Source of the DNA: Halococcus salifodinae DSM 8989
GTDB lineage: Archaea; Halobacteriota; Halobacteria; Halobacteriales; Halococcaceae
Reading direction: 5' to 3'
Assembly (NCBI RefSeq): GCF_000336935.1
Contig: NZ_AOME01000079.1
Location: 32,755-96,754, forward strand
Length of the DNA: 64,000 nucleotides
Numbering within the stretch: position 1 is the stretch's first letter; every line of letters starts with the position of its first letter. Under the pieces are notes generated by a model, which worked only from the letters and a program-made list of their open reading frames with translations, made no database searches and was not told the origin of the DNA. Shown here piece after piece: positions 49,375 through 50,170 of this stretch. Both the position numbers and the translations under genes were made by a program.

Positions 49375-50028
49375 ATGGACGACGATTCGCCCACGCGCCG
49401 CGGCGTCAGAGAAACCTACGACCGGATCGGGAGCCACTTCGCCCAGACGCGTGCACACCCGTGGCCGGCGGTCGAGCGGTTCGTCGAGCGCGCGACGCCC
49501 GCGACCGACGCGACCTGGGGACTCGATCTCGGCTGTGGGAACGCGCGCCACGCCGCCCTGCTGACCGACCGAACGGAGCGGGTCGTGGGGATCGACGCGA
49601 GCCGCACGGTGCTCGACACCGCACGCGAGCGGGTCCAGGAGGTGGACGGCAAAATCGAACTCTGTCAGGCCGACGCAACCCACCTCCCGCTCGCCAGCAA
49701 CAGCGTGGCCCTCGCGGTGTACATCGCCACGATCCACCACCTCCCGACCCGCGACGCACGCATCGCGAGTCTCGACGAACTCTCGCACGTGCTCGCACCG
49801 GGTGGGCGCGCCCTCGTGAGCGCGTGGAGCACGACCCACGAGACGTTCGACCGGGAGGAGGGGTTCGATACGACCGTCGACTGGACGCTGCCCGGCGGCG
49901 AGACCGTTCCGCGATACTACCACATCTACGACCCGGACGAGTTCGAACGGGACCTACGCACAAGCGCGCTCGGAATCGAGCGAACCTTCGAAGAAGCGGG
50001 AAACTGCTACGCCGTGGTGGGCGACTAA
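49375..50028 (+). CDS. Class I SAM methyltransferase, Trm9-like
   Basis: 217-residue methyltransferase. The opening YDRIGSHFAQTRAHPWPAVERFVE (about residues 15-38) matches the Y-x-x-I-x-x-H-F-x-x-T-R-x-x-P-W-P pattern of Trm9/ALKBH8-type tRNA wobble-uridine methyltransferases. It is followed by SAM motif I LDLGCGNARH, motif II GIDASRT and motif IV CQADATHLPL. The next gene, 41 nt downstream, is tRNA-Gly(UCC), a class of tRNA modified by yeast Trm9. Archaea make related U34 modifications; the exact reaction here is inferred. Confidence 0.85.
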   Translation: MDDDSPTRRGVRETYDRIGSHFAQTRAHPWPAVERFVERATPATDATWGLDLGCGNARHAALLTDRTERVVGIDASRTVLDTARERVQEVDGKIELCQADATHLPLASNSVALAVYIATIHHLPTRDARIASLDELSHVLAPGGRALVSAWSTTHETFDREEGFDTTVDWTLPGGETVPRYYHIYDPDEFERDLRTSALGIERTFEEAGNCYAVVGD

Positions 50029-50069
50029 AGGGAAAGGTCCTTAGTCGCCGCCGAGAGAAACTCGAATGC

Positions 50070-50170
50070 GCACCAGTGGTCTAATGGCAAGACCTGGGCC
50101 TTCCATACGCGGACGGTCCCCGTTCGGGTGAAGACAGCCCATGATCCGAGTTCGATTCTCGGCTGGTGCA
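50070..50170 (+). tRNA. tRNA-Gly(UCC) with 30-nt intron
   Basis: Complete cloverleaf: acceptor GCACCAG/CTGGTGC (50070-50076/50163-50169) with discriminator A; D stem GTCT/AGAC; anticodon stem TGGGC (50095-50099)/GCCCA (50137-50141) with loop C-T-TCC-A-A; T stem CCGAG/CTCGG around TTCGATT. No CCA is encoded. The anticodon TCC is at 50102-50104. An intron (50106-50135) lies at the canonical 37/38 site. CUUC (50100-50103) pairs with GAAG (50130-50133), leaving 3-nt bulges CA|U and AC|A at both cleavage sites: a perfect bulge-helix-bulge. Confidence 0.95.
50106..50135 (+). other. Intron of tRNA-Gly(UCC)
   Basis: 30 nt between nucleotides 37 and 38. Inside it, CGGACGG (50110-50116) pairs with CCGTTCG (50120-50126) with one G-U wobble and a 3-nt loop, giving the terminal hairpin that presents the bulge-helix-bulge to the splicing endonuclease. 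Confidence 0.88.

Follow-up and report, generated by a model that had tools for sequence, protein, structure and literature searches.

A canonical 37/38 intron in tRNA-Gly(UCC) of Halococcus salifodinae, carried within Halobacteria by one clade of four species

Introduction

In Haloferax volcanii, introns interrupt tRNA-Trp, elongator tRNA-Met and tRNA-Gln(UUG), the last of these with an intron of 31 nt, and knockdown of the splicing endonuclease reduces all three intron-bearing tRNAs (PMC7714728). Euryarchaeal splicing endonucleases (EndA) of the alpha2 and alpha4 types are strict for canonical bulge-helix-bulge (BHB) motifs, and the best described gains of tRNA introns come from Thermoproteales, which have endonucleases of relaxed specificity (PMC4090602; PMC4033280). 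The route by which archaeal tRNAs gain introns is an unsettled question in the field.

Here we describe an intron in the tRNA-Gly(UCC) gene of Halococcus salifodinae DSM 8989, located in a stretch of 64,000 nucleotides that we call the window. We hold with high confidence that this is a functional, single-copy gene whose 37/38 BHB intron is of the kind spliced out by protein enzymes and is derived in one clade of four species, most simply through a single gain. The observed part of this reading consists of the sequence anatomy, the single copy, the EndA gene, the distribution of the intron, the synteny of the locus and the clade. The novelty lies in which tRNA and which lineage carry the intron; the kind of intron and its mechanism are ordinary. 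We found no report of a haloarchaeal Gly(UCC) intron in the open-access literature searched.

Results

When introns are allowed, ARAGORN calls Gly(tcc) i(37,30), that is, a 30-nt intron after position 37, and in whole-genome mode Rfam RF00005 matches the same gene with 54.5 bits (G000:C79:82824-82924, equal to window positions 50070-50170). The gene is also the best match to the Gly(UCC) model R1 in the H. salifodinae genome. Run by default, without introns, ARAGORN calls no gene at these positions, and cmscan of the window with fast filters does not recover the RF00005 match. The precursor can be written as GCACCAG-UG-GUCU-AAUGGCA-AGAC-C-UGGGC-CUUCCA, the intron, and A-GCCCA-UGAU-CCGAG-UUCGAUU-CUCGG-CUGGUGC-A (Table 1). 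Excision of the intron in silico leaves a predicted fold that is a perfect 71-nt cloverleaf, class I and of glycine type; the insertion lies exactly between positions 37 and 38, and the cloverleaf is complete only without it. A tRNA-Gly(UCC) gene bearing an intron at 37/38 is thus confirmed.

Table 1. Features of the tRNA-Gly(UCC) locus (window positions) and of related intron-bearing genes (locus coordinates)
Feature	Position	Strand	Basis or remark
Class I SAM-dependent methyltransferase gene, upstream synteny anchor	49375..50028	+	Pfam PF13649/PF08241
Putative BRE/TATA-like promoter block GGGAAAGGTCCTTAGTCG	50030..50047	+	alignment of ten congeners; predicted promoter function
tRNA-Gly(UCC) gene	50070-50170	+	30-nt intron inside, canonical position 37/38
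5' exon, positions 1-37	50070..50105	+	sequence, intron-aware ARAGORN, RF00005; identical in four species
Intron, 30 nt, canonical 37/38	50106..50135	+	intron-aware ARAGORN; missing at syntenic locus of six congeners; variable among four carriers
3' exon, positions 38-73	50136..50170	+	sequence, intron-aware ARAGORN, RF00005; identical in four species
Acceptor stem	50070-50076/50163-50169	+	sequence
D stem	50079-50082/50090-50093	+	sequence
Anticodon stem UGGGC/GCCCA	50095-50099/50137-50141	+	sequence
Anticodon UCC	50102-50104	+	in 5' exon, A37 next
T stem	50146-50150/50158-50162	+	sequence
Discriminator A	50170	+	end of 3' exon
BHB central helix, 5' strand CUUC (exon positions 32-35)	50100..50103	+	sequence, pairs checked
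BHB central helix, 3' strand GAAG (in intron)	50130..50133	+	invariant in four species
5' bulge C-A/U, predicted cut 50105/50106	50104..50106	+	sequence and EndA cleavage rule
3' bulge A-C/A, predicted cut 50135/50136	50134..50136	+	sequence and EndA cleavage rule
Inner hairpin of intron, UCC loop	50107..50129	+	9 of 10 pairs, one G.G mismatch
Gly(UCC) gene of genus g172, 41-nt intron	L219:1493-1604	+	CUUC/GAAG helix
Gly(UCC) gene of genus g172, 32-nt intron	L220:1489-1591	-	CUUC/GAAG helix
Elongator tRNA-Met, 56-nt intron	L033:31-159	-	H. salifodinae
Elongator tRNA-Met, 52-nt intron	L041:31-155	-	H. salifodinae
Elongator tRNA-Met, 54-nt intron	L047:31-157	+	H. salifodinae

The precursor has the hBHBh' form, in which the outer helix UGGGC/GCCCA is followed by a 4-bp central helix, two 3-nt bulges and an inner hairpin. 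Cleavage by archaeal EndA at the bulges of a BHB is an established rule. Folding of the precursor gives a z of -3.8, and among shuffles of the same 30 nt only 0.26% have the central helix together with at least four of the five inner pairs. For the splice region, the unconstrained minimum-energy fold (-22.8 kcal/mol) is a near-equal alternative to the BHB (-22.2 kcal/mol) and has the same outer helix and inner hairpin; the BHB, 0.6 kcal/mol above the minimum, accounts for about 11% of the local ensemble. Nearly all of the 30 nt are BHB strand and hairpin, and the intron is not of the box C/D-guide kind. These features support an intron of the standard canonical archaeal BHB type, which is a predicted EndA substrate. 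The coordinates and anatomy given by the original prediction are correct, and the CUUC/GAAG helix, the two 3-nt bulges and the terminal hairpin that it described are present, with the structure kept in four species.

Among the recovered genes of H. salifodinae, intron-aware ARAGORN lists glycine tRNAs with the anticodons GCC, CCC and UCC, one each, and a pattern for intronless Gly(UCC) has no match in this genome or in those of two further carriers (G002 and G008). GGA accounts for 16 of 154 glycine codons in five genes; since the codon is in use, the Gly(UCC) gene should be needed. In the usual decoding, the GCC anticodon reads GGC and GGU, and CCC reads GGG. No Gly(UCC) gene other than that at 50070-50170 turned up in the genome, so GGA decoding should depend on it, and hence on splicing. 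Programs for tRNA finding that are run without introns overlook the sole GGA-reading tRNA of carrier genomes.

Within the genus, the intron occurs in four of ten species: H. salifodinae (G000), G002, G006 (apparently the MAG Halobacteriales archaeon SW_9_67_24) and G008. Their exons are identical at all 71 nt, whereas identity between their flanks reaches only about 85-92%. The introns (TACGCGGACGGTCCCCGTTCGGGTGAAGAC, TACGCGGACGGTCCCCGTTCGTGTGAAGAC, AATGCGGACGGTCCCCGTTCGCGTGAAGAC and TACCCGGACGGCCCTCGTTCGCGTGAAGAC) differ at several positions; the end GAAGAC is invariant, and both the CUUC/GAAG helix and the 3' bulge are kept. Substitutions in the inner hairpin leave most of its pairs intact (C-G to U.G, G-C to G.U), and its mismatch position is tolerant, with G.G in H. 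salifodinae and C.C in G002. One could suppose that the locus is a pseudogene, or a degenerate tRNA gene interrupted by chance, and that another tRNA serves GGA, given that default ARAGORN is blind to the gene and that 30 nt in the anticodon loop would inactivate the tRNA if left unspliced. We regard this as extremely improbable: the exons are fully conserved between diverging flanks, the insertion sits exactly at 37/38 and forms a BHB, and neither intron-aware ARAGORN nor the pattern finds a second Gly(UCC) gene in the genome.

The six remaining species have an intronless Gly(UCC) at the same locus, beside the same methyltransferase gene, and their alleles are of two types, A (G001, G003, G004) and B (G005, G007, G009). 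The methyltransferase gene is near Gly(UCC) in all ten congeners and in two outgroup genera of the same family (g3 and g4), which are also intronless at the syntenic locus. In the alignment, a GGGAAA...CTTA block is conserved upstream of Gly(UCC) in 10/10 congeners. The carriers are monophyletic in the trees of the methyltransferase (98/96) and of EndA (100/99). Across the 18 species of the family, 12 are intronless and four have the intron; the other two (G010 and G015) are each less than 80% complete. At this syntenic locus, the most parsimonious history is a single gain in the common ancestor of the carriers. Weak BLAST matches in another genus (L016 and L017) are not tRNAs.

Both protein trees group G009 with the species of type A, but its tRNA matches that of G005 and G007, which is of type B, exactly. 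Its upstream flank (L187, G009:C164:219800-226200) is nearly identical to that of G003 (L189) up to the tRNA. Compared with L189 of G003 and L185/L186 of G007/G005, this looks like a tRNA gene replaced in place. With the 5S rRNA insertion as a candidate marker for the genus, the congeners with a strong match have one match of normal size (115-119 nt) each, except G009, where two matches of 93 and 119 nt abut (L211/L212, G009:C155:1532-1740). This is reminiscent of Halococcus morrhuae, which has an enlarged 5S rRNA with an insertion.

To place the intron in the class, 392 genomes of Halobacteria were surveyed. For intronless Gly(UCC), a pattern of fixed spacing that tolerated one mismatch found a gene in 345 of them; about 150 of these sequences were listed, all with CTTCCA, and the others were assigned by the pattern. 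The other 47 comprise three carriers, 17 intronless genomes with one extra base in the D loop, 25 that were read directly as intronless, and two without a recognisable gene (G364, in 450 contigs, and G406, 82% complete). In total, 387 genomes have an intronless gene, a count in which a second, intron-bearing copy would pass unnoticed, and three, all from the genus of H. salifodinae, have the intron. Forms of 72-74 nt with one or more extra D-loop bases occur in several haloarchaeal genera (L125-L131, L153-L174), and fixed-spacing searches miss them because of those extra bases. A pattern with a gap of at most 44 missed the positive controls by one base and was used only for intronless 72-nt forms. 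The original prediction considered a Gly(UCC) intron unusual for Halobacteria and proposed that finding it in most haloarchaeal Gly(UCC) genes would count against this; the survey came out the other way, and the claim holds.

The phylum was searched with a gapped pattern (393 genomes), which recovered the three carriers as positive controls together with two further genuine cases; being built on haloarchaeal Gly(UCC), the pattern probably misses cases in more distant lineages. The two cases (G638 and G661) are non-haloarchaeal, belong to genus g172 of family f22 and have Gly(UCC) introns of 32 and 41 nt at 37/38. Two other apparent cases, G484 (also f22) and G096, are intronless genes with a chance T-loop motif downstream. 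Elsewhere in the phylum, then, Gly(UCC) introns either arose or were retained, and that of H. salifodinae is unusual only within Halobacteria.

The same distribution bears on whether the intron is ancestral and was lost from almost all other haloarchaea instead of being gained in the carrier clade. An ancient origin has been proposed for canonical 37/38 introns (PMC4033280), and within the phylum g172 also has Gly(UCC) interrupted at this site. However, with 387 of 392 surveyed Halobacteria intronless, many independent losses would be required; at the syntenic locus, neither the six congeners nor the outgroup genera g3 and g4 have an intron, and the g172 introns (41 and 32 nt) have, by eye, only the BHB core in common with the carriers. 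An ancestral intron is accordingly improbable, and we retain a gain within the genus.

How it was gained is a separate matter. The carrier exons differ from type A alleles at 13 of 71 positions and from type B at 19, and from alleles of other families at 9-10. Being slightly nearer to other families than to congeners, they may stem from a foreign Gly(UCC) allele that already had the intron and took the place of the resident gene by homologous recombination, with no insertion into the latter; replacement of Gly(UCC) does occur in the genus, as in G009, where a type B gene lies in a type A flank and background. On the other hand, tRNAs are short and homoplasious, and the gap between 9-10 and 13 is too small for exon distances to decide between insertion and a foreign allele. 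No intron-bearing donor was found among the 392 class or 393 phylum genomes; among 84,980 species genomes there is none except one MAG, apparently G006 itself; and neither the intron nor a key exon string has a match in viral contigs. Replacement by a foreign allele thus seems doubtful, if still worth considering. We lean towards the broader reading that a presumably indispensable single-copy isoacceptor gained its intron very recently, within the genus, possibly through a foreign allele or through insertion of a circular excised tRNA intron.

The enzyme available for splicing can be examined in the same genome. H. salifodinae has one full-length EndA gene, of 366 aa, with two matches of the N-terminal type (a duplicated N-terminal domain) and one catalytic domain; among solved structures, the homodimeric enzymes of the Archaeoglobus type (3p1y, 2gjw and 1r0v) match it best. 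This EndA is of the alpha2 type, and the host would have an endonuclease for canonical BHBs. The canonical BHB in the Gly(UCC) intron is the kind of substrate to which alpha2 and alpha4 enzymes are restricted.

Discussion

The proposed pathway is as follows. The intron would have been gained once, in the ancestor of the four-species clade, at a locus that is intronless in relatives. The Gly(UCC) gene would give one precursor transcript, and the alpha2-type EndA would bind the BHB and cut after A37 and before A38. RtcB would presumably then join the exons into a GGA-reading tRNA of 71 nt, and the excised 30 nt would be released, probably as a circle. Transcription, cutting, ligation and a gain in place of multiple losses are the parts of our reading that we infer.

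At one locus in one genus, four species have the intron and six do not; the hosts have a strict alpha2-type enzyme, and some are probably cultivable. For these reasons the gain, the dependence on splicing and any benefit are directly testable. If the gain is indeed recent, the genus would be a natural and tractable setting, outside Thermoproteales, for studying how an archaeal tRNA acquires an intron.

In comparison with known systems, the Gly(UCC) intron resembles the H. volcanii Trp, elongator Met and Gln(UUG) introns in its 37/38 position, 4-bp helix, two 3-nt bulges and EndA substrate geometry, and its 30 nt are near the 31 nt of Gln(UUG); however, in that species none of the three tRNAs with introns is Gly(UCC). 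As for the same tRNAs in H. salifodinae, three elongator tRNA-Met genes have introns (Table 1), one of the introns being clearly different in sequence from the other two, and tRNA-Gln(UUG) is intronless (L027:31-103, - strand), in contrast to H. volcanii. The haloarchaeal tRNA-Trp intron contains a box C/D guide, for which the Gly(UCC) intron is too small.

With g172, a different lineage, the carriers have in common the tRNA, the site and the CUUC/GAAG central helix, but the introns there (32 and 41 nt) are AU-rich and without evident similarity by eye outside the BHB core. In Caldivirga maquilingensis, splicing likewise joins tRNA-Gly isoacceptors (CCC, UCC and GCC) from split genes, with 37/38 among the points of interruption (PMC4090602); there, separate transcripts are spliced in trans, whereas H. 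salifodinae has one contiguous gene that is predicted to be spliced in cis. In Kluyveromyces lactis, tRNA-Gly(UCC) also has a lineage-specific intron and exons unlike those of close relatives, and is read as a recent gain; it differs in having a eukaryotic intron and endonuclease, two gene copies, and exons presumed to derive from a bacterial tRNA-Glu (PMC4090602).
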